From Apteryx mantelli (lineage: Eukaryota; Chordata; Aves; Apterygiformes; Apterygidae), in NCBI RefSeq assembly GCF_036417845.1, contig NC_089981.1, positions 1,009,501-1,073,500 on the forward strand: a stretch of 64,000 nt of DNA. The letters are read 5' to 3'. Shown piece by piece: positions 1,655-47,205 of the stretch. The first letter of the stretch is position 1. Every line of letters starts with the position of its first letter. A program made the position numbers and the translations under genes. A model generated the notes under the pieces. That model did not search any database and had not been told where the DNA came from. It was given only the letters and a program-made list of their open reading frames with translations.

Positions 1655-1722
1655 CCCCTTCACTTCCGCCGTCGCCTCAGTGGCTGGGCCGTTTCCATGG
1701 AGATGGAAGATGGCGGCCGCAG
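1655..1722 (+). promoter_or_regulatory. TMEM138: TMEM138 core promoter: ETS-like site, X-box-like palindrome and TISU/YY1 element, then a short noncoding first exon
   Basis: CpG-island promoter lying between CYB561A3 (minus) and TMEM138 (plus). It holds a CACTTCCG ETS-like core near 1660, the palindrome-like GTTTCCATGGAGAT at 1691-1704, and GAAGATGGCGGCC around 1710, which fits the TISU/YY1 consensus SAASATGGCGGC. TISU elements set transcription starts a few bases upstream and work with very short leaders. The exon ends CCGCAG at 1722 before gtgggc. The TISU ATG (1710-1712) does not start TMEM138; it opens a 10-codon upstream frame. Positions 1694-1715 are identical to 6397-6418 at TMEM216. 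Confidence 0.6.
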
Positions 1723-2838
1723 GTGGGCGCGCCGCCGCTCGCAGGGGCCCCGGCGGGGACGGGGGACACGGGGATGGCGGCACCACCGGCACCGGCAGCC
1801 CGGGGGACAGGGGGTACTGCGGCCTACCTCGGCCCGGCGAGCAGGGGCCGGGGAGAGCCGTGGGGAGCGGGCCTGGGGGCAGGAGGCCCGGGGGCGCTGC
1901 GGCCTGCTTAGGCGCTGGGGGGGGGGAGGTGGGCGAGGGGCCGCCGGGGGAGCCCGGGGCTTGGGGAGCCCTGGGGAGGGGGGGGTAACGGCTGCGTGGC
2001 GGCCAGGCGTCGGCCTTACCCGTGCTCCTCGGGGACGACGTGCTGCTTTCTCGGAGCGGCGCAGGCCCTGGCCTGGCTGTCGGCGGTGGGAAAGCCGTGC
2101 AGGGGGGCTGCGTCCCCTCGCTCGGCCCCAGGCAGCCCTGCTGCTTCGCCCTGTCCTCGGCGCTCTCTGACCGGCCGCCTCGGACTGGGTGCAGGGTCCA
2201 AGGGTGGAGCGAAAAAGAGCGATGCTGGGTCACAGCATGCCCAAACCTGCTCCCCTAGCGTGGCCTGCCCTGGACTGCCCATGAGGCTGTCTGTGGCTGT
2301 GGGATGTGGCTTCCACTCGCTTGTCCACCATGACAAGGGTGAACAACCTGCCTGGACTGTCCTCCGGTTTCTGCCCCAGGGCTCATGCATCTTCCTCATC
2401 CCTGAATTTCCTTCTATCTGTTCCCTGAGATTAGGGGCTGCTGTAAGGCTTAAGAGTGGGAGAGAGAGACTCAGTCTGAGTCTGCTGCACGGTGAGAGAA
2501 AGCAGAGGGGAGACAGCTCATTCATAAGAGCCCCAGCTTGCGGAGTAAGGGCAGGAGCACGGCTCTGCATAGGAACCTGTGGGTGTCTCTGCTTGGGGCA
2601 GAGAACTGGGACGCTCGTTGCTATGTATGTGCAGCATGAGAGGAGCCTGGCACGTTGTTCCCTGAGCTGGGCCTGGCTGCAGAAGTGCAGAAACCAGCAG
2701 GCTCCTCTTCGGATGTGCTTTGGATTTCCTCACGGTGGGGTGCAGGAAGAGCTGAATTCTCTTTCAGTTGTGGGGTTTGTGTCCGGCCCTGCTGAGCTGT
2801 GTCTCTGCTCCCTTCTAGGTTCCAGGTCCTGGCTGTAG
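1710..2838 (+). other. Upstream ORF in the TMEM138 leader, split by intron 1
   Basis: Exon 1 supplies ATGGCGGCCGCAG (1710-1722). Exon 2, starting at 2819 after the acceptor ccttctag, continues it as MAAAGSRSWL and stops at TAG 2836-2838. The main TMEM138 ATG lies 110 nt further on at 2949. If transcription starts at the TISU, ribosomes would meet this 10-codon frame first and would have to reinitiate or leak past it. Inferred from the splice sites; no transcript was consulted. Confidence 0.45.
1723..2818 (+). other. TMEM138 intron 1
   Basis: Bounded by donor CAG/gtgggc at 1722/1723 and acceptor ttctag at 2818. The first 300 bases are still CpG-rich and then composition falls. No repeat family or second gene was recognised. 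Confidence 0.5.
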
Positions 2839-2948
2839 GGAGAGGCTGTGGTACGAGAGGCGACGCTGAGCCCCTCGGCTCCGGAGCATGAGCCGGCCCT
2901 GCTGCTTGGGATGCCGGGGCTGAGGGCTCACACCTCTGGCGAAGGAAG

Positions 2949-5202
2949 ATGCTCCAGACCAGTAACTACAGCCTGGTGCTGTTCCTGCAGTTCCTGCTGC
3001 TTTTCTACGACCTGTTTGTCAACTCCTTTTCTGAGCTGCTCCGCACAGCTCCTGCTGTCCAACTTGTCCTCTTCATGTGAGTGCCAGGCAGACCTAGCGG
3101 GGTGAGCGGGGGCATGGGAGGGCGGGGGTCTCCCGTGTACCGCAAGGGTGCTTACAACGTCTCTGCCCTCCTGCAGTATCCAGGACATCGCCATTCTCTT
3201 CAACGTCATCATCATCTTCCTCATGTTCTTCAACACCTTCGTCTTCCAGGCCGGTCTGGTCAACCTCCTCTTTCACAAGTTCAAGGGGACCATCGTCCTG
3301 TCAGCGGCCTACCTGGCGCTCAGCATCTCCTTCCACGTCTGGCTCATGGTAGGGCCATGGCTGGGCCCCGGGCTGCCCGCTTCCCCCCGAGGGCGCGCAG
3401 GCAGGGCCCTGGCGCGCAGGCAGGGCCCCGGCGCCCTGCTGTGCCGGCCATGACCCCTGGCTCCCTTCAGCCCCTCTCCGCTGTGCTGGGCGTCAGGGCA
3501 GGGCAGGAGCCTCCCACCACGCATTTTGTCCCGCACAGGTTGGAAACAACTGCTCTCCCGGGTGATTTGGGAAAGACTTAGTCTGTGTGAGCAGCTTTTC
3601 CGTAGGGGGGTGAGTGTCTCCGGGTAAACCCTCTGCTCCCAAGAGGGCAGTGAAGGCAGGAGCAGTGGGAGATTTAGCAGTAGAGACGGGGAGCTCTTCT
3701 CTTAGCCTCTGGCCGCGACCCCCCTCCTCACGGTTCCTTGTCCCCGTGCGATCGCACACTTGCCACCGGCCGCAGTCACGGGCTTTTAGGCTGCGGCAGT
3801 GACGCAGCAGACGTTCCGGAGCCGTGCTCAGCCCAGGAGGCGAAGGCAGGTCGTTTCAGAGGCAGGCGCCGAGCTGCGAGAAGCGTGGACCAGCCTGAGG
3901 GCCTGCTCGGCGCTTCCCTGCCGCATCCCAGCCCCCTCCCCGTCGACCTGCTGGACAATCCTCTTTCCCCACAGAAAGCCCTCTGGCTCTGGCTCTGTTC
4001 TGGCACACGCTGCCCTGGGTAATCCCCAGCCTGAAGGTCGTGACAGCAGCACCTGGGATTACCTGGGATTAATCCCCAGCAAATGCCAGCGCCCGGACGC
4101 TGCCAGCAGCCTCCCGTCTGTGGGTATCTGGCAGCACAGCGAGCTGCCAGGGTTCCCTGCTCGTCTGAGAAGCGTCTTCCCCTTCCGCCCCTTCCTCAGC
4201 CCCCCTCTGTCCCGGGCACCAGACCCCAAAAGGAGCAGCCCCCAGCCCCCCCCCGGCCCCTGAGCACCCCCCTGCGTAGCCCCAGCTCTCCCGGGCGCGG
4301 GGCAGGGCAGCGCCCCAGCTCCGAGGGTGCCGTCGCCACCCCGCTCCCGGGAGCGCTCCGGTTCCCCGGGAGAGTCGGTGCTCGAGGGCTGGGAGCTGCC
4401 CGAGCGCACGGCCGGGCTTGCGCTGCCCACACGCCGTCCGGGCAGGGGCTTGCCAGGGATTTGCAGGGATCCGAAGTCTGAAGCTAGAAGAGGTCCTGGC
4501 TCGCTGTCGAAATCCCCTGAGCCGCTTAACCTTTGGGGCAGGGGGCTGCCCCCGGCCGCAGGCTGCTGCTCGGAGCCAGCCCCCCTGCCCGTGGGTCCTT
4601 GCCCGGGCGGTGAAGGACCTCGCTCTCCCCCGGTGGGGAGAGCCTCAAGGCAGCCACGGTCCTCGGGGCGCGGGGACAGCCCTCTCCCGCTGGCATCCCC
4701 AGCGCCCCGGGCTGGGGGAGCCGGAGGTGCAGGGTGCTGAGCTCTCGTGGCCCCCGGGGCAGTTTGTTTCTTGGCGCTGACACCCGCCATGTGCGTTTGC
4801 CCACCTCAGAACCTGCGGTGGAGAGACTCCAGCCGCTTCGTGTGGACCGAAGGCCTGCAGACGCTTTTTGTCTTCCAGCGACTGGGTAAGGGCTCGCCGT
4901 CGCGGGGTGCTGCCTGCCTCGCGGGCCGTGCTGGGGCAGCCCCGAACCGGGCACGCAGCTTGGCACCCGCACCGGGGTGCCTGGAGGCACCGGGACCCCG
5001 TCTGGGAGCCTGTGGGACCTGACTCCGGAGGGAGGCAGGTGGGGGTGGACGCGGCCCTCACCTCCCTCCCTCCCTCCCTCCCCCCGCAGCGGCCGTGCTT
5101 TACTGCTACTTCTACAAGAGGACGGCGGTGCGCCTGGGCGACCCCCTCTTCTATCAGGACTCGCTGTGGCTGCGCAAGGAGTTTGCTCAGCTCCGCGGCT
5201 GA
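2949..5202 (+). CDS. TMEM138: TMEM138, ciliary transition-zone tetraspan membrane protein
   Basis: Coding exons 2949-3076, 3177-3348, 4810-4885 and 5090-5202 join without a frame break into 162 residues, the human length. The start [14 protein letters not shown] and the end [16 protein letters not shown] match TMEM138, as do [21 protein letters not shown] and [19 protein letters not shown]. All junctions are GT-AG. Four hydrophobic segments lie at about 7-27, 38-66, 80-100 and 115-135, and there is one N-glycosylation sequon (NYS) at residue 6. In mammals the protein sits at or near the ciliary base/transition zone and its loss causes Joubert syndrome. TMEM216 follows 1.2 kb downstream on the same strand; the two genes are unrelated in sequence but act in the same process. 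The start was chosen because it matches the human N-terminus. Confidence 0.96.
3349..4809 (+). other. TMEM138 third intron
   Basis: The longest TMEM138 intron (donor ATG/gtaggg, acceptor ccacctcag). It is GC-rich with no gene. A short direct duplication containing CCTGGGATTA occurs near 4050-4075. No transposable element was recognised. Confidence 0.5.
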
Positions 5203-5605
5203 CGGCTCTGCTCGGCCTTTCAGCTGCCCGCTGCCTCGCCTCGGCGTCCGCAGGCAGCTCCTGCGCCGAGCGACACCCTCGCACGCCGGATCGGCGCTCG
5301 CCCGTGCCGGCTCCGCTGGGGTCCCCTCCGTTCCTCCTCGTCCGTGGGCCCGGCTGCTGCCTCGTCGGGGAGGGATCCAAGAGGCCAGAGGGCTTGTCCT
5401 GGCCCTGTGCCTCCAGCCCAGCCATGTTCCTCCTCTTCCTTCTCCTCCCGGGGATCAGTCCTTCCACCTGCTCCAGCGCGGCTCGTGCTCCAGTGGCAGC
5501 AGGAGCCGCAGGATGCACGCGGCGGGCCCAGCCCTCCAGCGGCCGGGCTCTGTCCTGGCGTTACATCCCCTGCTGGGACTTGGGAGTTTTTGTAAATTGT
5601 AAAGA

Positions 5606-5611
5606 AATAAA
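5606..5611 (+). terminator. TMEM138: TMEM138 poly(A) signal AATAAA
   Basis: AATAAA about 400 nt after the TMEM138 stop, followed by the T/GT-rich run gtcgtgtgtctgtgtgtg at 5634 on, a typical downstream element. It sets the 3' UTR at roughly 5203-5630. Confidence 0.85.
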
Positions 5612-5631
5612 TTGGCTGTGTTTTCCAGAGG

Positions 5632-6380
5632 CTGTCGTGTGTCTGTGTGTGCCGCAGGCACCCCTGGGCCTCTCCTGTTCTTCTTTTCCTCCCTTGGACT
5701 GCGATGCCACGTTGACGGCAAGCTTCGTGGGTGACTGTTACGGAGAGAACTGAACTGATACCGTTGCTTGCACAGTAACACACAGACAGTGTGTTTTCAG
5801 CCACAAAACTGGGCCTGTTTGCACCTTGCAGCACCCCCACAGGGTCGTGCAGGCCACGGGTCCCAGTTGGGGACCCTCAGACGGACATAGAAGCAGCGTG
5901 GACTCCGGGTGGCACTGGTTTGTCCCCGAGCTGTCTTGTGCAGAGTTGGGAGGGTGGTTGATGCGGTGCGTATCCGAGAGCTGGCGAGATGCGACCTCTG
6001 CGCTCCCGTCCCCAGGCACAAGAGCAGGTTCCCCGCGTCCGGGCTGGCGACAAGGGCTGCAGGACACGTGAGAGCAGGAAGGGAAGCGGCTCTGGGTGGC
6101 CGGGGGAACGCAGGGGCCAGCTGCTCACCTGTGAAAACACAGTTTCCCTGCCAGTCTTTGTGCTCCAGGAGGAAGCGCTTGAACAGAGGGGGCCCTGGAG
6201 GGCGGCCGGGGCTCCCCGTCCTGCCGCCAGCAGCCGCCGGCGCCGCGGCGAGCCCCGAGGGCCGGGCCGGGGCCGCGAACCCGCGGACGATGGGAGGCCC
6301 CCTCCAGTCCTCCTCGACCATAGAGGTGGGCGGAGAGAGCGGCCTGGCGCATGCCCCTCCGAGCACTCCCGGCAGCGAGG
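5632..6380. other. TMEM138-TMEM216 intergenic spacer
   Basis: About 0.75 kb separates the TMEM138 cleavage site from the TMEM216 promoter. It becomes CpG-rich after about 6180. No coding exon was recognised. In human the corresponding interval is reported to hold a regulatory module co-ordinating the two genes; here it is very short. Confidence 0.5.
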
Positions 6381-6382
6381 GC

Positions 6383-6425
6383 GGCTGTGGCCGGTCTCCA
6401 TGGAGATGGAAGATGGCGCCCAGGA
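6383..6425 (+). promoter_or_regulatory. TMEM216: TMEM216 core promoter: X-box-like palindrome joined to a TISU start element
   Basis: GTCTCCATGGAGAT at 6394-6407 runs into GAAGATGGCGCCC, a TISU/YY1-type element whose ATG (6413-6415) is the TMEM216 start codon. The human gene also has its MAPR methionine in an AAGATGGCG context, as far as I recall. The 22 bases 6397-6418 are identical to 1694-1715 at TMEM138, and the preceding GGCTG..GGCCGG also matches with small gaps. Two ATGs inside the palindrome are out of frame with the protein, which fits transcription starting just before the TISU. Confidence 0.6.
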
Positions 6426-7445
6426 GTGAGTGCGGGGCCGGGGCCGGGGGGCGGCGGGAGTCGGACCGGGGGGGGGGGGGGGGGCCGGGCCACCCCCCCC
6501 CGCCGACGGCCGGTGTGCGCCCGCAGGCCGGCAGCTCTCCTCGGCGCCGCTGCAGATCCTGCTGTTCCTCAACGGCTGGTACTGCGCCACTTACTTCCTC
6601 CTGGAGGCCTTCATCTTCGTCTACAAGGGTGAGCCCGGCCCCCCCCCCCCCCCCGCCCCGGCCCCGCCGCCCCCGGGCCGCCCCCGGGCCCCGACACCCC
6701 CGGGCCGCGGCGGCGCCAGCGCTGAGGGCGGCGGCGGCTGTGCCCGCAGTGCTGCTGCTGCCCTACCCCTCCGCCAACCTGGCGCTGGACGTGCTCCTGC
6801 TCTTCCTCTACCTGGGCGTTGAGGCCACCCGCATCTTCTTCGGTAAGTCGCGGTGGCCAGGGCTGAGCCGGTGGCCGGGCTTTGCTCAGCGCCCCGGCGG
6901 GTAAGCGCTGGGGCTGCGGCAGCACCGTTTGCTGTGTGGCCCCCCCCCCCCCCCCACGGCGGGGTCCTGGCCGCAGGTGAGCACGGCCCCGGCTGGGGGG
7001 GACCTCGCTCCCCTTGCGCTGCGTGAGGCGGAGGTGGGGGCCGCAGTAACGGTGCGCTGCGCAGGGTCGAAGGGCAACCTGTGCCAGCGGAAGGTGCTGC
7101 TCTCCATCAGTCTGGCCCTGACCCTCCCGGCGGCCACGATGGCAGCCTACTACCTGCTGCTCCAGACCTACGCCCTGCGCCTGGAAGCCATCCTCAGTGC
7201 CATCCTCCTGGTCTTCTACGCTGCAGAGCTGCTGCTCGGCATCCTCACGCTGGTCTCCTTCTCCAGGTACGGCGGCGGCCACCGGAAGCCGCACCGCGCG
7301 GTGCAGGGAGGGAAAGAACCCCCCGGCACGGGGGGAACCGGGCAGGGCGAGCCGTGGGGCGCAGCCCCCACCCTGGCCCGGGGGCCTGCCGCCGCCTGCC
7401 GCCGCAGCCCCGTCTCCCCTTCTCTGCAGCAGGGATTCGTACTGA
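6413..7445 (+). CDS. TMEM216: TMEM216, ciliary transition-zone tetraspan membrane protein
   Basis: Coding exons 6413-6425, 6527-6628, 6750-6842, 7065-7266 and 7430-7445 join to 141 residues: MAPRSRQLSSAPLQ, then FLNGWYCATYFLLEAFIFVYK, LLPYPSANLALDVLLLFLYLGVEATRIFFG, SKGNLCQRK and a last hydrophobic helix, ending FSSRDSY. These match human TMEM216 from its second methionine. Four membrane segments are evident. The arginine in VEATRIFFG corresponds to human Arg73, the residue hit in the Joubert/Meckel founder allele. The product works at the ciliary transition zone with the MKS-module proteins. The start codon lies in a TISU element. The last coding exon is only 16 nt, chosen because cag/CAGGGATTCG gives a human-like short C-terminus; shifting the acceptor by one CAG would give a long unrelated tail. 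Confidence 0.95.
6469..6483. repeat. Homopolymer G tract in TMEM216 intron 1
   Basis: About 15 consecutive G. It belongs to a wider pattern of long G or C runs in this window (for example 6642-6655 and 6943-6957). Prone to sequencing error and length variation. Confidence 0.8.
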
Positions 7446-27124: not shown

Positions 27125-28502
<1,378 letters not shown>

Positions 28503-30494: not shown

Positions 30495-33400
30495 GTGCTG
30501 GGGATGCTCAGGGCCGGGGATGCTCAGTGCTGGGGATGCTCAGTGCTGGGGATGCTCAGTGCTGGGGATGCTCAGTGCTGGGGGTGCTCAGTGCTGGGGA
30601 TGTTCAGTGCTGGGGATGCTCAGTGCTGGGGATGCTCAGTGCTGGGGATGTTCAGTGCTGGGGATGCTCAGTGCTGGGGATGTTCAGTGCTGGGGATGTT
30701 CAGTGCTGGGGGTGCTCAGTGCTGGGGATGTTCAGTGCTGGGGATGCTCAGTGCTGGGGATGTTCAGTGCTGGGGATGTTCAGTGCTGGGGATGTTCAGT
30801 GCTGGGGATGCTCAGTGCTGGGGATGTTCAGTGCTGGGGATGCTCAGTGCTGGGGATGCTCAGTGCTGGGGATGTTCAGTGCTGGGGATGTTCAGTGCTG
30901 GGGATGCTCAGTGCTGGGGATGCTCAGTGCTGGGGGTGTTCAGTGCTGGGGATGCTCAGTGCTGGGGATGTTCAGTGCTGGGGATGTTCAGTGCTGGGGA
31001 TGCTCAGTGCTGGGGATGCTCAGTGCTGGGGGTGTTCAGTGCTGGGGATGCTCAGTGCTGGGGATGTTCAGTGCTGGGGATGCTCAGTGCTGGGGATGCT
31101 CAGTGCTGGGGGTGTTCAGTGCTGGGGATGTTCAGTGCTGGGGATGTTCAGTGCTGGGGATGTTCAGTGCTGGGGATGCTCAGTACTGGGGATGCTCAGT
31201 GCTGGGGATGTTCAGTGCTGGGGATGTTCAGTGCTGGGGATGCTCAGTGCTGGGGATGCTCAGTGCTGGGGATGCTCAGTGCTGGGGGTGTTCAGTGCTG
31301 GGGATGCTCAGTGCTGGGGATGCTCAGTGCTGGGGGTGTTCAGTGCTGGGGATGCTCAGTGCTGGGGATGTTCAGTGCTGGGGATGCTCAGTGCTGGGGA
31401 TGCTCAGTGCTGGGGATGCTCAGTGCTGGGGATGTTCAGTGCTGGGGATGCTCAGTGCTGGGGATGCTCAGTACTGGGGATGCTCAGTGCTGGGGATGCT
31501 CAGTGCTGGGGGTGCTCAGTGCTGGGGGTGCTCAGTGCTGGGGATGCTCAGTGCTGGGGATGTTCAGTACTGGGGATGCTCAGTGCTGGGGATGTTCAGT
31601 ACTGGGGATGCTCAGTGCTGGGGATGCTCAGTGCTGGGGATGTTCAGTGCTGGGGATGTTCAGTGCTGGGGATGCTCAGTGCTGGGGATGCTCAGTGCTG
31701 GGGGTGTTCAGTGCTGGGGATGTTCAGTGCTGGGGATGTTCAGTGCTGGGGATGTTCAGTGCTGGGGATGTTCAGTGCTGGGGGTGTTCAGTGCTGGGGA
31801 TGTTCAGTGCTGGGGATGTTCAGTGCTGGGGATGTTCAGTGCTGGGGATGTTCAGTGCTGGGGATGCTCAGTGCTGGGGATGTTCAGTGCTGGGGATGCT
31901 CAGTGCTGGGGATGCTCAGTGCTGGGGATGTTAAGTGCTGGGGATGTTCAGTGCTGGGGGTGCTCAGTGCTGGGGATGCTCAGTGCTGGGGATGCTCAGT
32001 GCTGGGGGTGTTCAGTGCTGGGGATGCTCAGTGCTGGGGGTGTTCAGTGCTGGGGATGCTCAGTGCTGGGGGTGTTCAGTGCTGGGGATGTTCAGTGCTG
32101 GGGATGCTCAGTGCTGGGGATGCTCAGTGCTGGGGATGCTCAGTGCTGGGGATGCTCAGTGCTGGGGGTGCTCAGTGCTGGGGATGCTCAGTGCTGGGGA
32201 TGCTCAGTGCTGGGGATGCTCAGTACTGGGGATGCTCAGTGCTGGGGATGTTCAGTGCTGGGGATGTTCAGTGCTGGGGATGCTCAGTGCTGGGGATGTT
32301 CAGTGCTGGGGGTGTTCAGTGCTGGGGATGCTCAGTGCTGGGGATGTTCAGTGCTGGGGATGTTCAGTGCTGGGGATGTTCAGTGCTGGGGATGTTCAGT
32401 GCTGGGGATGTTCAGTGCTGGGGATGCTCAGTGCTGGGGGTGTTCAGTGCTGGGGATGTTCAGTGCTGGGGATGTTCAGTGCTGGGGATGTTCAGTGCTG
32501 GGGATGTTCAGTGCTGGGGATGTTCAGTGCTGGGGATGTTCAGTGCTGGGGGTGCTCAGTGCTGGGGATGCTCAGTGCTGGGGGTGCTCAGTGCTGGGGA
32601 TGTTCAGTGCTGGGGATGTTCAGTGCTGGGGATGTTCAGTGCTGGGGGTGCTCAGTGCTGGGGCTGTTCAGTGCTGGGGATGTTCAGTGCTGGGGATGCT
32701 CAGTGCTGGGGATGCTCAGTGCTGGGGCTGTTCAGTGCTGGGGATGTTCAGTGCTGGGGATGTTCAGTGCTGGGGGTGCTCAGTGCTGGGGATGCTCAGT
32801 GCTGGGGGTGCTCAGTGCTGGGGATGTTCAGTGCTGGGGATGCTCAGTGCTGGGGATGTTCAGTGCTGGGGGTGCTCAGTGCTGGGGCTGTTCAGTGCTG
32901 GGGATGTTCAGTGCTGGGGATGCTCAGTGCTGGGGATGCTCAGTGCTGGGGCTGTTCAGTGCTGGGGATGTTCAGTGCTGGGGATGTTCAGTGCTGGGGA
33001 TGCTCAGTGCTGGGGATGCTCAGTGCTGGGGATGTTCAGTGCTGGGGATGTTCAGTGCTGGGGATGCTCAGTGCTGGGGATGCTCAGTGCTGGGGGTGTT
33101 CAGTGCTGGGGATGTTCAGTGCTGGGGATGTTCAGTGCTGGGGATGTTCAGTGCTGGGGATGTTCAGTGCTGGGGATGCTCAGTGCTGGGGATGTTCAGT
33201 GCTGGGGATGTTCAGTGCTGGGGGTGCTCAGTGCTGGGGATGCTCAGTGCTGGGGATGCTCAGTGCTGGGGGTGTTCAGTGCTGGGGATGCTCAGTGCTG
33301 GGGGTGTTCAGTGCTGGGGATGCTCAGTGCTGGGGATGTTCAGTGCTGGGGATGCTCAGTGCTGGGGATGCTCAGTGCTGGGGATGTTCAGTGCTGGGGA

Positions 33401-36400
33401 TGCTCAGTGCTGGGGATGCTCAGTGCTGGGGATGCTCAGTGCTGGGGATGCTCAGTACTGGGGATGCTCAGTGCTGGGGATGTTCAGTGCTGGGGATGTT
33501 CAGTGCTGGGGATGCTCAGTGCTGGGGATGCTCAGTGCTGGGGATGCTCAGTGCTGGGGATGCTCAGTGCTGGGGATGCTCAGTGCTGGGGATGTTAAGT
33601 GCTGGGGATGTTCAGTGCTGGGGGTGCTCAGTGCTGGGGATGCTCAGTGCTGGGGATGCTCAGTGCTGGGGGTGTTCAGTGCTGGGGATGCTCAGTGCTG
33701 GGGGTGTTCAGTGCTGGGGATGCTCAGTGCTGGGGGTGTTCAGTGCTGGGGATGTTCAGTGCTGGGGATGCTCAGTGCTGGGGATGCTCAGTGCTGGGGA
33801 TGCTCAGTGCTGGGGGTGCTCAGTGCTGGGGGTGCTCAGTGCTGGGGATGTTCAGTGCTGGGGATGCTCAGTGCTGGGGATGCTCAGTGCTGGGGATGCT
33901 CAGTGCTGGGGATGTTCAGTGCTGGGGATGCTCAGTGCTGGGGGTGCTCAGTGCTGGGGATGCTCAGTGCTGGGGGTGCTCAGTGCTGGGGGTGCTCAGT
34001 GCTGGGGATGCTCAGTGCTGGGGATGTTCAGTGCTGGGGATGCTCAGTGCTGGGGATGTTCAGTTCTGGGGATGCTCAGTGCTGGGGGTGCTCAGTGCTG
34101 GGGGTGCTCAGTGCTGGGGATGTTCAGTGCTGGGGATGCTCAGTGCTGGGGATGCTCAGTGCTGGGGGTGCTCAGTGCTGGGGATGCTCAGTGCTGGGGA
34201 TGTTCAGTTCTGGGGATGCTCAGTGCTGGGGGTGCTCAGTGCTGGGGATGCTCAGTGCTGGGGATGCTCAGTGCTGGGGATGCTCAGTGCTGGGGATGTT
34301 CAGTGCTGGGGATGTTCAGTGCTGGGGATGCTCAGTGCTGGGGATGCTCAGTGCTGGGGATGTTCAGTGCTGGGGATGTTCAGTGCTGGGGGTGCTCAGT
34401 GCTGGGGATGCTCAGTGCTGGGGGTGCTCAGTGCTGGGGATGTTCAGTGCTGGGGATGCTCAGTGCTGGGGATGCTCAGTGCTGGGGATGCTCAGTGCTG
34501 GGGATGTTCAGTGCTGGGGATGTTCAGTGCTGGGGGTGTTCAGTGCTGGGGATGCTCAGTGCTGGGGATGCTCAGTGCTGGGGATGCTCAGTGCTGGGGA
34601 TGTTCAGTGCTGGGGATGTTCAGTGCTGGGGGTGTTCAGTGCTGGGGATGCTCAGTGCTGGGGGTGTTCAGTGCTGGGGATGCTCAGTGCTGGGGATGCT
34701 CAGTGCTGGGGATGTTCAGTGCTGGGGGTGCTCAGTGCTGGGGATGTTCAGTGCTGGGGATGCTCAGTGCTGGGGATGCTCAGTGCTGGGGATGCTCAGT
34801 GCTGGGGATGCTCAGTGCTGGGGATGCTCAGTGCTGGGGATGCTCAGTGCTGGGGATGCTCAGTGCTGGGGATGCTCAGTGCTGGGGATGCTCAGTGCTG
34901 GGGATGCTCAGTGCTGGGGGTGTTCAGTGCTGGGGATGCTCAGTGCTGGGGATGCTCAGTGCTGGGGATGTTCAGTGCTGGGGATGTTCAGTGCTGGGGA
35001 TGTTCAGTGCTGGGGATGCTCAGTGCTGGGGATGCTCAGTGCTGGGGATGTTCAGTGCTGGGGATGCTCAGTGCTGGGGATGTTCAGTGCTGGGGATGCT
35101 CAGTGCTGGGGATGCTCAGTGCTGGGGATGCTCAGTGCTGGGGATGTTCAGTGCTGGGGATGTTCAGTGCTGGGGGTGTTCAGTGCTGGGGATGCTCAGT
35201 GCTGGGGATGCTCAGTGCTGGGGATGCTCAGTGCTGGGGATGTTCAGTGCTGGGGATGTTCAGTGCTGGGGATGCTCAGTGCTGGGGATGTTCAGTGCTG
35301 GGGATGTTCAGTGCTGGGGATGTTCAGTGCTGGGGATGTTCAGTGCTGGGGATGTTCAGTGCTGGGGGTGTTCAGTGCTGGGGGTGTTCAGTGCTGGGGA
35401 TGCTCAGTGCTGGGGGTGCTCAGTGCTGGGGATATTCAGTGCTGGGGATGCTCAGTGCTGGGGATGTTCAGTGCTGGGGATGCTCAGTGCTGGGGATGCT
35501 CAGTGCTGGGGATGTTCAGTGCTGGGGATGCTCAGTGCTGGGGATGTTCAGTGCTGGGGATGCTCAGTGCTGGGGATGCTCAGTGCTGGGGATGCTCAGT
35601 GCTGGGGATGTTCAGTGCTGGGGATGCTCAGTGCTGGGGATGCTCAGTGCTGGGGGTGTTCAGTGCTGGGGATGTTCAGTGCTGGGGATGTTCAGTGCTG
35701 GGGATGTTCAGTGCTGGGGATGCTCAGTGCTGGGGATGTTCAGTGCTGGGGATGCTCAGTGCTGGGGATGTTCAGTGCTGGGGATGCTCAGTGCCGGGGA
35801 TGTTCAGTGCTGGGGATGTTCAGTGCTGGGGATGCTCAGTGCTGGGGATGCTCAGTGCTGGGGATGTTCAGTGCTGGGGATGTTCAGTGCTGGGGATGCT
35901 CAGTGCTGGGGATGCTCAGTGCTGGGGATGTTCAGTGCTGGGGATGCTCAGTGCTGGGGATGCTCAGTGCTGGGGATGTTCAGTGCTGGGGGTGTTCAGT
36001 GCTGGGGATGTTCAGTGCTGGGGGTGCTCAGTGCTGGGGATGTTCAGTGCTGGGGATGCTCAGTGCTGGGGGTGCTCAGTGCTGGGGATGTTCAGTTCTG
36101 GGGATGTTCAGTGCTGGGGATGTTCAGTGCTGGGGATGCTCAGTGCTGGGGATGCTCAGTGCTGGGGGTGTTCAGTGCTGGGGATGTTCAGTGCTGGGGG
36201 TGCTCAGTGCTGGGGATGTTCAGTGCTGGGGGTGTTCAGTGCTGGGGATGCTCAGTGCTGGGGATGCTCAGTGCTGGGGATGTTCAGTGCTGGGGGTGTT
36301 CAGTGCTGGGGATGCTCAGTGCTGGGGATGCTCAGTGCTGGGGATGCTCAGTGCTGGGGGTGCTCAGTGCTGGGGATGCTCAGTGCTGGGGATGTTCAGT

Positions 36401-39400
36401 GCTGGGGATGCTCAGTGCTGGGGATGCTCAGTGCTGGGGATGCTCAGTGCTGGGGGTGCTCAGTGCTGGGGATGCTCAGTGCTGGGGATGTTCAGTGCTG
36501 GGGATGTTCAGTGCTGGGGATGCTCAGTGCTGGGGATGCTCAGTGCTGGGGATGTTCAGTGCTGGGGGTGCTCAGTGCTGGGGATGCTCAGTGCTGGGGG
36601 TGCTCAGTGCTGGGGATGCTCAGTGCTGGGGATGTTCAGTGCTGGGGATGTTCAGTGCTGGGGATGCTCAGTGCTGGGGATGCTCAGTGCTGGGGATGTT
36701 CAGTGCTGGGGGTGCTCAGTGCTGGGGATGCTCAGTGCTGGGGATGTTCAGTGCTGGGGATGTTCAGTGCTGGGGATGTTCAGTGCTGGGGGTGCTCAGT
36801 GCTGGGGGTGTTCAGTGCTGGGGGTGTTCAGTGCTGGGGATGTTCAGTGCTGGGGATGTTCAGTGCTGGGGATGTTCAGTGCTGGGGGTGTTCAGTGCTG
36901 GGGATGCTCAGTGCTGGGGGTGTTCAGTGCTGGGGATGTTCAGTGCTGGGGATGTTCAGTGCTGGGGATGTTCAGTGCTGGGGGTGTTCAGTGCTGGGGA
37001 TGTTCAGTGCTGGGGGTGTTCAGTGCTGGGGATGTTCAGTGCTGGGGATGCTCAGTGCTGGGGGTGTTCAGTGCTGGGGGTGTTCAGTGCTGGGGATGCT
37101 CAGTGCTGGGGGTGCTCAGTGCTGGGGGTGTTCAGTGCTGGGGATGTTCAGTGCTGGGGATGTTCAGTGCTGGGGATGCTCAGTACTGGGGATGTTCAGT
37201 GCTGGGGATGCTCAGTGCTGGGGGTGCTCAGTGCTGGGGATGCTCAGTGCTGGGGATGTTCAGTGCTGGGGATGTTCAGTGCTGTGTGTGTTCAGTGCTG
37301 GGGATGCTCAGTGCTGGGGGTGCTCAGTGCTGGGGATGCTCAGTACTGGGGATGTTCAGTGCTGGGGATGCTCAGTGCTGGGGGTGCTCAGTGCTGGGGG
37401 TGCTCAGTGCTGGGGATGCTCAGTGCTGGGGATGTTCAGTGCTGGGGATGCTCAGTGCTGGGGATGTTCAGTGCTGGGGGTGTTCAGTGCTGGGGATGCT
37501 CAGTGCTGGGGATGTTCAGTGCTGGGGATGCTCAGTGCTGGGGATGCTCAGTGCTGGGGATGTTCAGTGCTGGGGATGCTCAGTGCTGGGGATGCTCAGT
37601 GCTGGGGATGTTCAGTGCTGGGGATGTTCAGTGCTGGGGATGCTCAGTGCTGGGGATGCTCAGTGCTGGGGATGCTCAGTGCTGGGGATGTTCAGTGCTG
37701 GGGGTGTTCAGTGCTGGGGATGCTCAGTGCTGGGGATGCTCAGTGCTGGGGGTGTTCAGTGCTGGGGATGTTCAGTGCTGGGGATGTTCAGTGCTGGGGA
37801 TGCTCAGTGCTGGGGATGCTCAGTGCTGGGGATGCTCAGTGCTGGGGGTGCTCAGTGCTGGGGATGTTCAGTGCTGGGGGTGCTCAGTGCTGGGGATGTT
37901 CAGTGCTGGGGATGTTCAGTGCTGGGGATGTTCAGTGCTGGGGATGCTCAGTGCTGGGGGTGCTCAGTGCTGGGGGTGCTCAGTGCTGGGGATGCTCAGT
38001 GCTGGGGGTGTTCAGTGCTGGGGGTGTTCATTGCTGGGGATGCTCAGTGCTGGGGATGCTCAGTGCTGGGGATGCTCAGTGCTGGGGATGTTCAGTGCTG
38101 GGGATGTTCAGTGCTGGGGGTGTTCAGTGCTGGGGATGTTCAGTGCTGGGGATGCTCAGTGCTGGGGGTGCTCAGTGCTGGGGATGTTCAGTGCTGGGGA
38201 TGTTCAGTGCTGGGGATGCTCAGTGCTGGGGGTGTTCAGTGCTGGGGATGTTCAGTGCTGGGCATGCTCAGTGCTGGGGATGCTCAGTGCTGGGGATGCT
38301 CAGTGCTGGGGATGCTCAGTGCTGGGGATGTTCAGTGCTGGGGGTGTTCAGTGCTGGGGATGTTCAGTGCTGGGTGTGTTCAGTGCTGGGGATGTTCAGT
38401 GCTGGGGATGCTCAGTGCTGGGGATGCTCAGTACTGGGGATGTTCAGTGCTGGGGATGTTCAGTGCTGGGGATGTTCAGTGCTGTGTGTGTTCAGTGCTG
38501 GGGATGCTCAGTGCTGGGGGTGCTCAGTGCTGGGGATGCTCAGTACTGGGGATGTTCAGTGCTGGGGATGCTCAGTGCTGGGGGTGCTCAGTGCTGGGGG
38601 TGCTCAGTGCTGGGGATGCTCAGTGCTGGGGATGTTCAGTGCTGGGGATGCTCAGTGCTGGGGATGCTCAGTGCTGGGGATGCTCAGTGCTGGGGATGTT
38701 CAGTGCTGGGGGTGTTCAGTGCTGGGGATGCTCAGTGCTGGGGATGCTCAGTGCTGGGGGTGTTCAGTGCTGGGGATGTTCAGTGCTGGGGATGCTCAGT
38801 GCTGGGGGTGTTCAGTGCTGGGGATGTTCAGTGCTGGGGATGTTCAGTGCTGGGGATGTTCAGTGCTGGGGGTGTTCAGTGCTGGGGATGTTCAGTGCTG
38901 GGGGTGCTCAGTGCTGGGGATGTTCAGCGCTGGGGATGTTCAGCGCTGGGGATGCTCAGTGCTGGGGATGTTCAGTGCTGGGGATGCTCAGTGCTGGGGA
39001 TGTTCAGTGCTGGGGATGCTCAGTGCTGGGGATGTTCAGTGCTGGGGATGCTCAGTGCTGGGGATGCTCAGTGCTGGGGATGTTCAGTGCTGGGGATGCT
39101 CAGTGCTGGGGATGTTCAGTGCTGGGGATGCTCAGTGCTGGGGATGCTCAGTGCTGGGGATGCTTAGTGCTGTGGATGTTCAGTGCTGGGGATGCTCAGT
39201 GCTGGGGATGTTCAGTGCTGGGGATGCTCAGTGCTGGGGATGTTCAGTGCTGGGGATGCTCAGTGCTGGGGGTGTTCAGTGCTGGGGATGTTCAGTGCTG
39301 GGGATGCTCAGTGCTGGGGATGCTCAGTGCTGGGGGTGTTCAGTGCTGGGGATGTTCAGTGCTGGGGATGTTCAGTGCTGGGGATGCTCAGTGCTGGGGG

Positions 39401-42400
39401 TGCTCAGTGCTGGGGATGTTCAGTGCTGGGGATGTTCAGTGCTGGGGATGCTCAGTGCTGGGGGTGTTCAGTGCTGGGGATGTTCAGTGCTGGGCATGCT
39501 CAGTGCTGGGGATGCTCAGTGCTGGGGATGCTCAGTGCTGGGGATGCTCAGTGCTGGGGATGTTCAGTGCTGGGGATGTTCAGTGCTGGGGGTGTTCAGT
39601 GCTGGGGATGTTCAGTGCTGGGGATGTTCAGTGCTGGGGATGCTCAGTGCTGGGGGTGTTCAGTGCTGGGGATGCTCAGTGCTGGGGATGCTCAGTGCTG
39701 GGGATGTTCAGTGCTGGGGGTGTTCAGTGCTGGGGATGTTCAGTGCTGGGGATGTTCAGTGCTGGGGGTGTTCAGTGCTGGGGATGCTCAGTGCTGGGGA
39801 TGCTCAGTGCTGGGGATGTTCAGTGCTGGGGGTGTTCAGTGCTGGGGATGCTCAGTGCTGGGGATGCTCAGTGCTGGGGATGCTCAGTGCTGGGGATGTT
39901 CAGTGCTGGGGATGTTCAGTGCTGGGGGTGTTCAGTGCTGGGGATGTTCAGTGCTGGGGATGCTCAGTGCTGGGGATGCTCAGTGCTGGGGATGCTCAGT
40001 GCTGGGGATGTTCAGTGCTGGGGATGCTCAGTGCTGGGGATGTTCAGTGCTGGGGATGTTCAGTGCTGGGGATGCTCAGTGCTGGGGATGTTCAGTGCTG
40101 GGGGTGTTCAGTGCTGGGGATGCTCAGTGCTGGGGATGCTCAGTGCTGGGGATGTTCAGTGCTGGGGGTGTTCAGTGCTGGGGATGCTCAGTGCTGGGGA
40201 TGCTCAGTGCTGGGGATGCTCAGTGCTGGGGATGTTCAGTGCTGGGGATGTTCAGTGCTGGGGGTGTTCAGTGCTGGGGATGTTCAGTGCTGGGGATGCT
40301 CAGTGCTGGGGATGCTCAGTGCTGGGGATGCTCAGTGCTGGGGATGTTCAGTGCTGGGGATGCTCAGTGCTGGGGATGTTCAGTGCTGGGGATGTTCAGT
40401 GCTGGGGATGCTCAGTGCTGGGGATGTTCAGTGCTGGGGATGCTCAGTGCTGGGGATGTTCAGTGCTGGGGATGTTCAGTGCTGGGGATGCTCAGTGCTG
40501 GGGATGTTCAGTGCTGGGGATGTTCAGTGCTGGGGATGCTCAGTGCTGGGGATGTTCAGTGCTGGGGATGCTCAGTGCTGGGGATGTTCAGTGCTGGGGA
40601 TGTTCAGTGCTGGGGATGCTCAGTGCTGGGGATGCTCAGTGCTGGGGATGTTCAGTGCTGGGGGTGTTCAGTGCTGGGGATGTTCAGTGCTGGGGATGTT
40701 CAGTGCTGGGGGTGTTCAGTGCTGGGGATGCTCAGTGCTGGGGATGTTCAGTGCTGGGGATGTTCAGTGCTGGGGATGCTCAGTGCTGGGGGTGCTCAGT
40801 GCTGGGGATGCTCAGTGCTGGGGGTGCTCAGTGCTGGGGGTGCTCAGTGCTGGGGATGCTCAGTGCTGGGGATGTTCAGTGCTGGGGATGCTCAGTGCTG
40901 GGGATGTTCAGTTCTGGGGATGCTCAGTGCTGGGGGTGCTCAGTGCTGGGGGTGCTCAGTGCTGGGGATGTTCAGTGCTGGGGATGCTCAGTGCTGGGGA
41001 TGCTCAGTGCTGGGGGTGCTCAGTGCTGGGGATGCTCAGTGCTGGGGATGTTCAGTTCTGGGGATGCTCAGTGCTGGGGGTGCTCAGTGCTGGGGATGCT
41101 CAGTGCTGGGGATGCTCAGTGCTGGGGATGTTCAGTGCTGGGGATGTTCAGTGCTGGGGATGCTCAGTGCTGGGGATGCTCAGTGCTGGGGATGTTCAGT
41201 GCTGGGGATGTTCAGTGCTGGGGGTGCTCAGTGCTGGGGATGCTCAGTGCTGGGGGTGCTCAGTGCTGGGGATGCTCAGTGCTGGGGATGCTCAGTGCTG
41301 GGGGTGTTCAGTGCTGGGGGTGTTCAGTGCTGGGGATGTTCAGTGCTGGGGATGTTCAGTGCTGGGGATGTTCAGTGCTGGGGATGCTCAGTGCTGGGGA
41401 TGTTCAGTGCTGGGGATGCTCAGTGCTGGGGATGTTCAGTGCTGGGGATGCTCAGTGCTGGGGATGTTCAGTGCTGGGGATGTTAAGTGCTGGGGATGCT
41501 CAGTGCTGGGGGTGTTCAGTGCTGGGGATGCTCAGTGCTGGGGGTGTTCAGTGCTGGGGATGTTCAGTGCTGGGGGTGTTCAGTGCTGGGGATGCTCAGT
41601 GCTGGGGGTGTTCAGTGCTGGGGATGCTCAGTGCTGGGGATGCTCAGTGCTGGGGATGTTCAGTGCTGGGGATGTTCAGTGCTGGGGATGTTCAGTGCTG
41701 GGGATGTTCAGTGCTGGGGATGCTCAGTGCTGGGGATGTTCAGTGCTGGGGATGCTCAGTGCTGGGGATGCTCAGTGCCGGGGATGTTCAGTGCTGGGGA
41801 TGCTCAGTGCTGGGGATGTTCAGTGCTGGGGATGTTCAGTGCTGGGGATGCTCAGTGCTGGGGATGTTCAGTGCTGGGGATGCTCAGTGCTGGGGATGCT
41901 CAGTGCTGGGGATGCTCAGTGCTGGGGATGCTCAGTGCTGGGGATGTTCAGTGCTGGGGATGCTCAGTGCTGGGGATGCTCAGTGCTGGGGATGCTCAGT
42001 GCTGGGGATGTTCAGTGCTGGGGATGTTCAGTGCTGGGGATGCTCAGTGCTGGGGATATTCAGTGCTGGGGATGCTCAGTGCTGGGGATGCTCAGTGCTG
42101 GGGATGTTCAGTGCTGGGGGTGTTCAGTGCTGGGGATGCTCAGTGCTGGGGATGCTCAGTGCTGGGGATGTTCAGTGCTGGGGATGCTCAGTGCTGGGGA
42201 TGTTCAGTGCTGGGGGTGTTCAGTGCTGGGGATGCTCAGTGCTGGGGATGTTCAGTGCTGGGGATGTTCAGTGCTGGGGATGCTCAGTGCTGGGGATGTT
42301 CAGTGCTGGGGGTGTTCAGTGCTGGGGATGCTCAGTGCTGGGGATGCTCAGTGCTGGGGATGTTCAGTGCTGGGGATGCTCAGTGCTGGGGATGTTCAGT

Positions 42401-45400
42401 GCTGGGGATGTTCAGTGCTGGGGATGCTCAGTGCTGGGGATGCTCAGTGCTGGGGATGTTCAGTGCTGGGGATGTTCAGTGCTGGGGGTGTTCAGTGCTG
42501 GGGATGTTCAGTGCTGGGGATGTTCAGCGCTGGGGATGTTCAGTGCTGGGGATGTTCAGTGCTGGGGATGTTCAGTGCTGGGGATGCTCAGTGCTGGGGA
42601 TGTTCAGTGCTGGGGATGCTCAGTGCTGGGGATGCTCAGTGCTGGGGATGCTCAGTGCTGGGGATGCTCAGTGCTGGGGATGTTCAGTGCTGGGGGTGCT
42701 CAGTGCTGGGGGTGCTCAGTGCTGGGGATGCTCAGTGCTGGGGATGTTCAGTGCTGGGGATGTTCAGTGCTGGGGATGTTCAGCGCTGGGGATGTTCAGT
42801 GCTGGGGATGTTCAGTGCTGGGGATGTTCAGTGCTGGGGATGCTCAGTGCTGGGGATGTTCAGTGCTGGGGATGTTCAGTGCTGGGGATGCTCAGTGCTG
42901 GGGATGCTCAGTGCTGGGGATGCTCAGTGCTGGGGATGCTCAGTGCTGGGGATGTTCAGTGCTGGGGGTGCTCAGTGCTGGGGGTGCTCAGTGCTGGGGA
43001 TGCTCAGTGCTGGGGATGCTCAGTGCTGGGGATGTTCAGTGCTGGGGATGTTCAGTGCTGGGGATGTTCAGTGCTGGGGGTGCTCAGTGCTGGGGATGCT
43101 CAGTGCTGGGGATGTTCAGTGCTGGGGATGTTCAGTGCTGGGGATGTTCAGCGCTGGGGATGTTCAGTGCTGGGGATGTTCAGTGCTGGGGATGTTCAGT
43201 GCTGGGGATGCTCAGTGCTGGGGGTGCTCAGTGCTGGGGATGTTCAGTGCTGGGGATGTTCAGTGCTGGGGATGTTCAGTGCTGGGGATGTTCAGTGCTG
43301 GGGATGCTCAGTGCTGGGGATGTTCAGTGCTGGGCATGCTCAGTGCTGGGGGTGTTCAGTGCTGGGGATGCTCAGTGCTGGGGATGTTCAGTGCTGGGGA
43401 TGTTCAGTGCTGGGGATGCTCAGTGCTGGGGGTGTTCAGTGCTGGGGATGCTCAGTGCTGGGGATGCTCAGTGCTGGGGGTGTTCAGTGCTGGGGATGCT
43501 CAGTGCTGGGGATGTTCAGTGCTGGGGATGCTCAGTGCTGGGGATGTTCAGTGCTGGGGATGTTCAGTGCTGGGGATGTTCAGTGCTGGGGATGCTCAGT
43601 GCTGGGGATGCTCAGTGCTGGGGATGCTCAGTGCTGGGGATGTTCAGTGCTGGGGATGCTCAGTGCTGGGGATGTTCAGTGCTGGGGATGTTCAGTGCTG
43701 GGGATGTTCAGTGCTGGGGATGTTCAGTGCTGGGGATGCTCAGTGCTGGGGATGTTCAGTGCTGGGGATGCTCAGTGCTGGGGATGCTCAGTGCTGGGGA
43801 TGTTCAGTGCTGGGGATGCTCAGTGCTGGGGATGTTCAGTGCTGGGGATGTTCAGTGCTGGGGATGCTCAGTGCTGGGGGTGTTCAGTGCTGGGGATGCT
43901 CAGTGCTGGGGGTGTTCAGTGCTGGGGATGCTCAGTGCTGGGGATGTTCAGTGCTGGGGGTGCTCAGTGCTGGGGATGCTCAGTGCTGGGGGTGTTCAGT
44001 GCTGGGGATGCTCAGTGCTGGGGATGTTCAGTGCTGGGGGTGTTCAGTGCTGGGGATGCTCAGTGCTGGGGATGTTCAGTGCTGGGGGTGTTCAGTGCTG
44101 GGGATGTTCAGTGCTGGGGATGCTCAGTGCTGGGGATGCTCAGTGCTGGGGATGTTCAGTGCTGGGGATGTTCAGTGCTGGGGATGCTCAGTGCTGGGGA
44201 TGTTCAGTGCTGGGGGTGTTCAGTGCTGGGGATGCTCAGTGCTGGGGGTGCTCAGTGCTGGGGGTGCTCAGTGCTGGGGGTGCTCAGTGCTGGGGATGTT
44301 CAGTGCTGGGGATGTTCAGTGCTGGGGATGCTCAGTGCTGGGGGTGTTCAGTGCTGGGGATGTTCAGTGCTGGGGATGTTCAGTGCTGGGGGTGTTCAGT
44401 GCTGGGGATGTTCAGTGCTGGGGATGCTCAGTGCTGGGGATGCTCAGTGCTGGGGGTGTTCAGTGCTGGGGATGTTCAGTGCTGGGGATGTTCAGTGCTG
44501 GGGATGCTCAGTGCTGGGGGTGTTCAGTGCTGGGGATGTTCAGTGCTGGGGATGTTCAGTGCTGGGGATGTTCAGTGCTGGGGATGCTCAGTGCTGGGGA
44601 TGTTCAGTGCTGGGGGTGTTCAGTGCTGGGGATGCTCAGTGCTGGGGGTGCTCAGTGCTGGGGGTGCTCAGTGCTGGGGGTGCTCAGTGCTGGGGATGTT
44701 CAGTGCTGGGGATGCTCAGTGCTGGGGGTGCTCAGTGCTGGGGGTGCTCAGTGCTGGGGATGTTCAGTGCTGGGGATGTTCAGTGCTGGGGATGCTCAGT
44801 GCTGGGGGTGTTCAGTGCTGGGGATGTTCAGTGCTGGGGATGTTCAGTGCTGGGGGTGTTCAGTGCTGGGGATGTTCAGTGCTGGGGATGCTCAGTGCTG
44901 GGGATGCTCAGTGCTGGGGGTGTTCAGTGCTGGGGATGTTCAGTGCTGGGGATGTTCAGTGCTGGGGATGCTCAGTGCTGGGGGTGTTCAGTGCTGGGGA
45001 TGTTCAGTGCTGGGGATGTTCAGTGCTGGGGATGTTCAGTGCTGGGGATGCTCAGTGCTGGGGATGTTCAGTGCTGGGGGTGTTCAGTGCTGGGGATGCT
45101 CAGTGCTGGGGGTGCTCAGTGCTGGGGGTGCTCAGTGCTGGGGGTGCTCAGTGCTGGGGATGTTCAGTGCTGGGGATGCTCAGTGCTGGGGGTGTTCAGT
45201 GCTGGGGATGTTCAGTGCTGGGGATGTTCAGTGCTGGGGATGTTCAGTGCTGGGGATGCTCAGTGCTGGGGGTGTTCAGTGCTGGGGATGTTCAGTGCTG
45301 GGGATGCTCAGTGCTGGGGATGCTCAGTGCTGGGGATGTTCAGTGCTGGGGATGCTCAGTGCTGGGGATGTTCAGTGCTGGGGATGCTCAGTGCTGGGGG

Positions 45401-47147
45401 TGTTCAGTGCTGGGGATGTTCAGTGCTGGGGGTGTTCAGTGCTGGGGATGTTCAGTGCTGGGGATGCTCAGTGCTGGGGATGCTCAGTGCTGGGGATGCT
45501 CAGTGCTGGGGATGTTCAGTGCTGGGGATGCTCAGTGCTGGGGATGTTCAGTGCTGGGGGTGTTCAGTGCTGGGGGTGTTCAGTGCTGGGGATGTTCAGT
45601 GCTGGGGATGCTCAGTGCTGGGGATGCTCAGTGCTGGGGATGCTCAGTGCTGGGGATGTTCAGTGCTGGGGGTGTTCAGTGCTGGGGATGTTCAGTGCTG
45701 GGGGTGTTCAGTGCTGGGGATGTTCAGTGCTGGGGGTGTTCAGTGCTGGGGATGCTCAGTGCTGGGGATGTTCAGTGCTGGGGATGTTCAGTGCTGGGGA
45801 TGCTCAGTGCTGGGGATGTTCAGTGCTGGGGATGCTCAGTGCTGGGGATGCTCAGTGCTGGGGATGCTCAGTGCTGGGGATGTTCAGTGCTGGGGATGTT
45901 CAGTGCTGGGGATGCTCAGTGCTGGGGATGCTCAGTGCTGGGGATGTTCAGTGCTGGGGGTGTTCAGTGCTGGCGGTGTTCAGTGCTGGGGATGTTCAGT
46001 GCTGGGGATGTTCAGTGCTGGGGATGCTCAGTGCTGGGGATGCTCAGTGCTGGGGATGTTCAGTGCTGGGGATGCTCAGTGCTGGGGATGTTCAGTGCTG
46101 GGGATGTTCAGTGCTGGGGATGCTCAGTGCTGGGGGTGTTCAGTGCTGGGGATGCTCAGTGCTGGGGGTGCTCAGTGCTGGGGATGTTCAGTGCTGGGGA
46201 TGTTCAGTGCTGGGGGTGCTCAGTGCTGGGGATGCTCAGTGCTGGGGATGTTCAGTGCTGGGGGTGTTCAGTGCTGGGGATGTTCAGTGCTGGGGATGTT
46301 CAGTGCTGGGGGTGTTCAGTGCTGGGGATGTTCAGTGCTGGGGATGTTCAGTGCTGGGGATGTTCAGTGCTGGGGATGTTCAGTGCTGGGGATGCTCAGT
46401 GCTGGGGATGCTCAGTGCTGGGGATGCTCAGTGCTGGGGGTGCTCAGTGCTGGGGATGCTCAGTGCTGGGGATGTTCAGTGCTGGGGGTGTTCAGTGCTG
46501 GGGATGTTCAGTGCTGGGGGTGTTCAGTGCTGGGGATGCTCAGTGCTGGGGATGCTCAGTGCTGGGGATGTTCAGTGCTGGGGATGCTCAGTGCTGGGGA
46601 TGTTCAGTGCTGGGGATGTTCAGTGCTGGGGATGCTCAGTGCTGGGGATGTTCAGTGCTGGGGATGTTCAGTGCTGGGGATGCTCAGTGCTGGGGATGCT
46701 CAGTGCTGGGGATGTTCAGTGCTGGGGATGTTCAGTGCTGGGGATGTTCAGTGCTGGGGATGTTCAGTGCTGGGGATGCTCAGTGCTGGGGATGTTCAGT
46801 GCTGGGGATGCTCAGTGCTGGGGATGTTCAGTGCTGGGGATGCTCAGTGCTGGGGATGCTCAGTGCTGGGGGTGTTCAGTGCTGGGGATGTTCAGTGCTG
46901 GGGATGTTCAGTGCTGGGGATGCTCAGTGCTGGGGGTGTTCAGTGCTGGGGATGTTCAGTGCTGGGGATGTTCAGTGCTGGGGATGTTCAGTGCTGGGGA
47001 TGCTCAGTGCTGGGGATGCTCAGTGCTGGGGATGCTCAGTGCTGGGGATGTTCAGTGCTGGGGATGTTCAGTGCTGGGGATGCTCAGTGCTGGGGATGTT
47101 CAGTGCTGGGGATGCTCAGTGCTGGGGATGTTCAGTGCTGGGGGTGC
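30495..47147 (+). repeat. Giant minisatellite: 16-bp unit, about 1,040 copies, 16.65 kb
   Basis: Unit GGGRTGYTCAGTGCTG repeated head to tail without interruption. Nearly all variation is at two transition sites, A/G (GGGATG or GGGGTG) and C/T (GCTC or GTTC), so each unit is one of four types. Rare forms include GTACTGG, GTTCTGG, GCGCTGG, GGGCATG, GCTGTGTG and TTAAG. Rare forms separated by up to 7,888 bp keep exact 16-bp register, so no partial unit lies between them. The plus strand has no stop in any frame except at TTAAG units, because neither the unit nor its common variants contain one; each frame reads the same 16-residue peptide MLSAGDAQCWGCSVLG. The minus strand meets TGA (from CACTGAGC) and is closed. 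It lies between the convergent 3' ends of LRRC10B and SYT7. Confidence 0.98.
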
Positions 47148-47205
47148 CCCCCCCGCCGCCGCCCCTCCCCCAGAGACGAGGCAGGCTGGGAGATGCTGAC
47201 TGTCC

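Follow-up and report, generated by a model that had tools for sequence, protein, structure and literature searches.

A near-identical X-box-like and TISU unit in the core promoters of TMEM138 and TMEM216 in Apteryx mantelli

The closest described system is the human TMEM138–TMEM216 module, an adjacent, head-to-tail and co-regulated gene pair with a conserved inter-gene region at which RFX4 binding is reported (Lee et al. 2012; via PMC3631122 and PMC12148096). The same neighbours were found, head-to-tail on one strand, in a stretch of 64,000 nucleotides (nt) of the Apteryx mantelli genome (contig NC_089981.1, positions 1,009,501 to 1,073,500; hereafter the window). Whereas the published module has one conserved inter-gene region, here a near-identical unit, consisting of an X-box-like palindrome and a TISU element, stands in both core promoters.

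Two further systems were used for comparison. In mouse testis, Tmem216 and Tmem138 belong to a large set of transition-zone genes occupied by RFX2. RFX sites are common in transition-zone genes, and RFX2 target promoters carry the X-box, a 14-nt imperfect palindrome, near the gene start (PMC4498915); according to the authors, RFX2 seems not to dominate the expression of these genes. The palindromes described here resemble those sites in form and placement, and differ in lying 1 nt from a TISU and in being nearly letter-identical in two unrelated neighbours. The TISU element (Elfakess and Dikstein 2008, PMC2518114) has a AAGATGGC core in CpG-rich DNA, is located +5 to +30 of transcription starts, is bound by YY1 and supports transcription. 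Translation begins at the TISU AUG in 64% of TISU genes; the remainder have leaders with a median of 192 nt, and their TISU AUG either meets a stop or lies out of frame (PMC2518114). Focused promoters show a preference for YY1 motifs (PMC3820735). No description of an X-box/TISU fusion, or of this shared unit, was found in the literature searched, though one of three closely relevant papers (Lee 2012; Venkatesh 2013; Malka 2024) may already cover part of it.

The shared unit and its rarity

A 22-mer, TCCATGGAGATGGAAGATGGCG, is present at 1694-1715 and at 6397-6418, on the plus strand in both cases, as given with the right coordinates and letters in an earlier note on this DNA; when the left X-box half is included, 25 nt are alike with one difference (Table 1). 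The 22-mer was searched for in the Apteryx mantelli genome (1,504,198,195 bases, 408 contigs) with up to 3 mismatches, by a method that passes over very common words, so that repeat counts are lower bounds. Thirty places were returned, two of them exact, none with 1-2 mismatches and 28 with 3 mismatches; 22 of these 28 sit on contig C142, and the six off C142 (L003-L008) are CpG-poor. The reversed 22-mer, used as a control, gave 1 place. The earlier note would have been contradicted by a 22-mer that is common at unrelated promoters, and this count shows no such commonness genome-wide. The exact 22-mer gave 0 matches in IMG/VR and prokaryote contigs. On contigs C142 and C271, near-identical matches of a satellite-like kind to parts of the searched patterns were numerous.

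A dispersed repeat or an assembly artefact as the source of the shared stretch is hardly conceivable: queries of 141 and 121 bases around the two copies each retrieved themselves and no further copy, on which ground a dispersed repeat was rejected, the flanks of the copies differ, and both copies stand at the starts of intact reading frames.

The X-box consensus GTTNCC-AT-GGNAAC, a 14-nt imperfect inverted repeat, was used for scoring. Both palindromes come close to it, with 10 (TMEM138) and 9 (TMEM216) of 12 consensus letters and all 14 positions inside the loose class, and in both copies one base separates the palindrome from the TISU; the proposal that an X-box-like palindrome plus TISU is held in both core promoters was thus borne out. 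When the upstream 100 bases were shuffled, an equally good X-box arose in 3/20,000 (TMEM138) and 5/20,000 (TMEM216) cases, and the 12-base run common to the two loci upstream of GAAGATGGCG was reached by 7/3000 shuffle pairs. Four sites in the window satisfy the full X-box criterion, and a looser one is present at 8457 (10/12, class 13). The only site in the inter-gene region that passes the full criterion is that of the TMEM216 core promoter; between 5626 and 6390 no further site passed it, and half-site-like words occur there. The window holds two AAGATGGCG words, each with an X-box one base before GAAGATGGCG. A separate X-box, GTTGCCGTGGCGAC (10/12), was observed at 27584-27597, 56 nt upstream of the ATG (27654) of a leucine-rich-repeat-like frame, taken from synteny to be LRRC10B-like.

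Both genes conform to the TISU definition in having a AAGATGGC core within CpG-rich DNA at the predicted start. The published rule for the TISU AUG is likewise followed: TMEM216 starts there, and the TMEM138 AUG (1710) opens a ten-codon upstream frame, MAAAGSRSWL*, the upstream-frame form of the 36% minority (PMC2518114). This frame runs across the predicted first splice of TMEM138 (exon 1 end 1722, donor 1723; donor and acceptor were placed from the sequence), and the protein start at 2949 in exon 2 is 143 nt further along the predicted mRNA. The earlier statement that the ATG has the same offset in both copies is therefore right for the motif and wrong for the TMEM138 protein start. The X-box part of each copy holds two more ATGs (1697/1703 and 6400/6406), none in frame with the TISU ATG; at TMEM216 they would give a long overlapping frame, and useful transcripts should therefore initiate downstream of them or depend on leaky scanning. 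The human TMEM216 protein, as presumed here, is listed as starting about seven codons upstream of the kiwi TISU ATG, and letter-for-letter conservation there may fail.

Copying or convergence

Other TISU loci of the same genome were used as background. The word GAAGATGGCGGC occurs 178 times, against 14 for the reversed control; 90 of the 178 loci were read, and 12 that were not CpG-like were dropped, leaving 78. The 100 places listed also comprise TMEM138 itself, a place only 54 nt away from another one (within L117) and eight unread places, none of which enters this background; the 78 include near neighbours (L052/L053), so that the pairs are in part dependent on one another. The best X-box score within 70 bases upstream was 5, 6, 7 and 8 of 12 at 13, 40, 20 and 5 loci, respectively; none of the 78 thus scores as high as TMEM138 (10) or TMEM216 (9), a difference from the TISU element as described.

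Over the last 15 bases before the TISU the two loci agree at 14, a value reached by 0/3003 background pairs, and over 40 bases at 25 (13/3003). In the downstream 30 bases 17 agree (78/3003). The outer flank from -16 to -70 has 20/55 identities, which 1204/3003 pairs reached, and local alignment scores of the flanks were reached by 2232 and 2048 of the 3003 pairs. The upstream likeness (GGCTG..GGCC) that had been claimed beyond the 22-mer is not above the level of TISU loci in general.

These numbers bear on two accounts of the origin. The first, which falls only a little short of an even chance, is a copied cassette: a duplication or template switch of about 38 nt, comprising X-box, TISU, first-exon end and donor, of which selection kept 25 nt. 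For it speak the identity of 22/22 letters, with two right-half departures from the X-box consensus shared by both copies, the same 1-nt spacing between X-box and TISU, the agreement of 30/38 letters over the unit, and the position of the copies on one strand, 4.7 kilobases (kb) apart and found nowhere else in the genome. Two independent X-boxes would agree at these 12 letters with a probability of about 4e-4, a rough figure since the profile was an assumed one. Both predicted first exons, moreover, end 13 nt after the A of the TISU ATG, with donor scores of 6.3 each, and an equally scored donor-like site at +13 was seen at 0/78 background loci (the nearest, at one locus, is at +15); the scoring table was an assumed one, the +13 test was made after the match had been noticed, and the TMEM138 donor is a predicted one, all of which lessen the weight of this point. 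The outer flanks and the local alignments, being at background level, also argue against copying: no similarity beyond the functional motifs was found, the +13 splice donor being the sole extra common feature seen. Outer flanks this ordinary rule out that anything well in excess of about 38 nt was copied recently. They are uninformative on a copy of about 38 nt, or on an old copy with decayed flanks. The shared off-consensus letters and the shared first-exon end at +13 suggest an arrangement that is hard to reach by convergence.

In the second account, a serious candidate that is nonetheless judged below even, the unit was assembled convergently, an X-box being gained twice beside an existing TISU under selection for a tight RFX-YY1 layout. 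It fits the flanks without homology, the commonness of RFX sites in transition-zone genes (PMC4498915) and two partial parallels elsewhere in the genome: at L064 (C2:143971804), GTTTACGTGGAGATGAAGATGGCGGC combines an 8/12 X-box-like word with a TISU that it abuts, and at L029 GTTTCCATGG lies three letters before AAGATGGCG. Against it, GGAGAT within 12 nt upstream was found at 1 of the 90 TISU loci read (L064), so the fused form is no common consensus; the spacing at L064 differs from that at TMEM138 and TMEM216, and its 8/12 is reached by 5/78 loci, L064 included. The TISU upstream frame of L064 ends before the protein start, and the gene, from its N terminus MEDEERLKKLEAGKAK, was taken to be AKAP9-like.

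A more specific form of copying, that the start unit as a whole, with RFX site, TISU and first-exon donor, was copied between unrelated neighbours and kept for locking their expression together, a functional gene pair thereby arising through the duplication of a promoter instead of a gene, is put forward tentatively, as something rather less probable than its opposite.

Putative RFX and YY1 input

The most likely reading of the unit, and on balance a probable one, is that both promoters receive common RFX and YY1 input. Each gene would have its own core promoter in CpG-island-like DNA, the common design being an RFX dimer site one base upstream of a YY1-bound TISU. YY1 at the TISU would make transcription begin 5-30 nt ahead of the ATG, which places the start within or next to the X-box, and would give broad activity, and RFX on the X-box would boost TMEM138 and TMEM216 in ciliated cells; each copy would thus be a focused core promoter, with YY1 at the TISU and RFX at an X-box lying across or just upstream of the start. 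With an identical unit and identical spacing, both genes may respond equally and a shared enhancer would be unneeded. TMEM216 protein would be made from the TISU ATG via a very short leader; at TMEM138 the TISU would serve transcription, and the ten-codon upstream frame should damp translation. Start sites, binding and joint response in Apteryx mantelli are predictions made from the letters and from the known systems. RFX co-regulation of the human pair, which the earlier note had mentioned, is in print (PMC3631122), and RFX2 occupies both mouse genes (PMC4498915).

Other transition-zone genes of this genome were consulted. TMEM17, named from the N terminus of its protein and presumably correctly so, has an X-box 21 nt before the ATG in a promoter island, with AAGATGGCG unfused about 240 nt after the X-box. 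For the B9 domain, six matches were grouped into three gene places, one of which (L139) was read; its gene, taken to be B9D2-like, has an X-box in a CpG-rich stretch, some 520 nt upstream of the ATG, with no fused TISU. Both X-boxes, in CpG-rich upstream DNA, are as would be expected of RFX targets and were counted in favour of common RFX and YY1 input. Upstream of the B9D2-like gene (C35:879800-881300), six AAGATGGCG words were observed within about 380 nt, possibly a local repeat.

Inheritance of the unit from TMEM216 paralogues was considered and rejected, no fused unit being seen at the three other PF09799 gene places, of which TMEM17 is one (10 kb read each). The second, at C4:18.73 megabases, has an island without an X-box passing the threshold; the third, on C17, showed X-box-like words in CpG-poor DNA only and no island in 10 kb, and its promoter thus probably lies outside the stretch read.

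At 40 genome places CCATGG was found at most 24 nt before AAGATGGCG; 30 of these places were read and scored. An X-box-like word near AAGATGGCG is not confined to this pair; the exact unit, its 1-nt spacing and its promoter setting are unique to the pair. Eight of the scored places (L013-L020, C1:221666805-221667254) belong to a CpG-poor tandem repeat with an X-box-like word 15 nt before AAGATGGCG. L029 (C17:15863829) is a CpG-rich start.

Several results weigh against common RFX and YY1 input. The right half GGAGAT, called degenerate in the earlier note, is indeed off the X-box consensus at two letters in both copies. Among the 30 places, 15 score at least 9/12 at CCATGG (the two under study included) and 10 pass the full X-box criterion, namely the two under study and the eight C1 tandem-repeat copies, and the CpG-rich starts L029 and L021 reach 9/12 without a proper right half. 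The X-boxes of TMEM17 and the B9D2-like gene, lacking a fused TISU, indicate that fusion is dispensable for an RFX site. In print, the RFX4 region is placed between the genes, and it may differ from the site found here (PMC3631122, PMC12148096).

Some of the same facts would fit a TISU match joined to a chance palindrome without RFX function: the TISU is a frequent element (178 GAAGATGGCGGC against 14 for the reversed control), the right half is imperfect, and scores of 9/12 occur round CCATGG in repeats. This explanation is considered unlikely in view of the rarity of such X-boxes in the shuffles, the restriction of the 22-mer to these two places in the genome and the mouse RFX2 occupancy of both genes (PMC4498915).

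The locus and what the unit may mean

Table 1. Positions of the shared unit and of the two genes in the window.
Feature	Position	Strand	Basis or remark
Copy 1 of the shared 25-mer, TMEM138 core promoter	1691..1715	+	sequence match and genome search
Copy 2 of the shared 25-mer, TMEM216 core promoter	6394..6418	+	sequence match and genome search
X-box-like palindrome GTTTCCATGGAGAT, TMEM138	1691..1704	+	10/12 consensus letters, consensus left half
X-box-like palindrome GTCTCCATGGAGAT, TMEM216	6394..6407	+	9/12 consensus letters; self-complementary at 12/14 positions
TISU/YY1 element GAAGATGGCG, TMEM138	1706..1715	+	ATG at 1710; definition PMC2518114
TISU/YY1 element GAAGATGGCG, TMEM216	6409..6418	+	ATG at 6413, the TMEM216 start codon
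TMEM138 upstream frame MAAAGSRSWL*, first part	1710..1722	+	remainder 2819-2838 after splicing
TMEM138 coding exons	2949-3076, 3177-3348, 4810-4885, 5090-5202	+	joined exons; Pfam PF14935
TMEM138 probable poly(A) signal AATAAA	5606..5611	+	791 nt before the second 22-mer
TMEM216 coding exons	6413-6425, 6527-6628, 6750-6842, 7065-7266, 7430-7445	+	sequence reading and Pfam

The joined exons encode products of 162 amino acids for TMEM138 (PF14935, E 4.8e-47) and 141 amino acids for TMEM216 (PF09799 Transmemb_17, E 3.3e-29); the two belong to separate, non-homologous Pfam families, in agreement with the earlier view that they are not paralogues. A minus-strand exon at 1-123 of the window encodes MLELPFLPFCALLGGLGVACVAFVSAWCQQWRGGFAWDGSA and was taken to be CYB561A3-like. 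Eight further frames of the window gave 0 families in a Pfam scan. One uninterrupted reading frame of 5559 amino acids was observed at 30520-47199 and, from its size and position, is presumed to be AHNAK-like.

In human, the TMEM216 upstream variant c.-69G>A has been linked to degeneration of the retina and to lower accessibility (PMC13394472), so letters of the TMEM216 promoter matter. For co-regulated, non-paralogous ciliopathy genes, the arrangement in Apteryx mantelli offers a base-level mechanism in which the core promoter would be present twice instead of one enhancer being shared, and it provides a clean case for weighing the spread of promoters by copying against convergence. A near-identical 25-letter start switch on two unrelated genes of the cilium gate could tie both to two common regulators.

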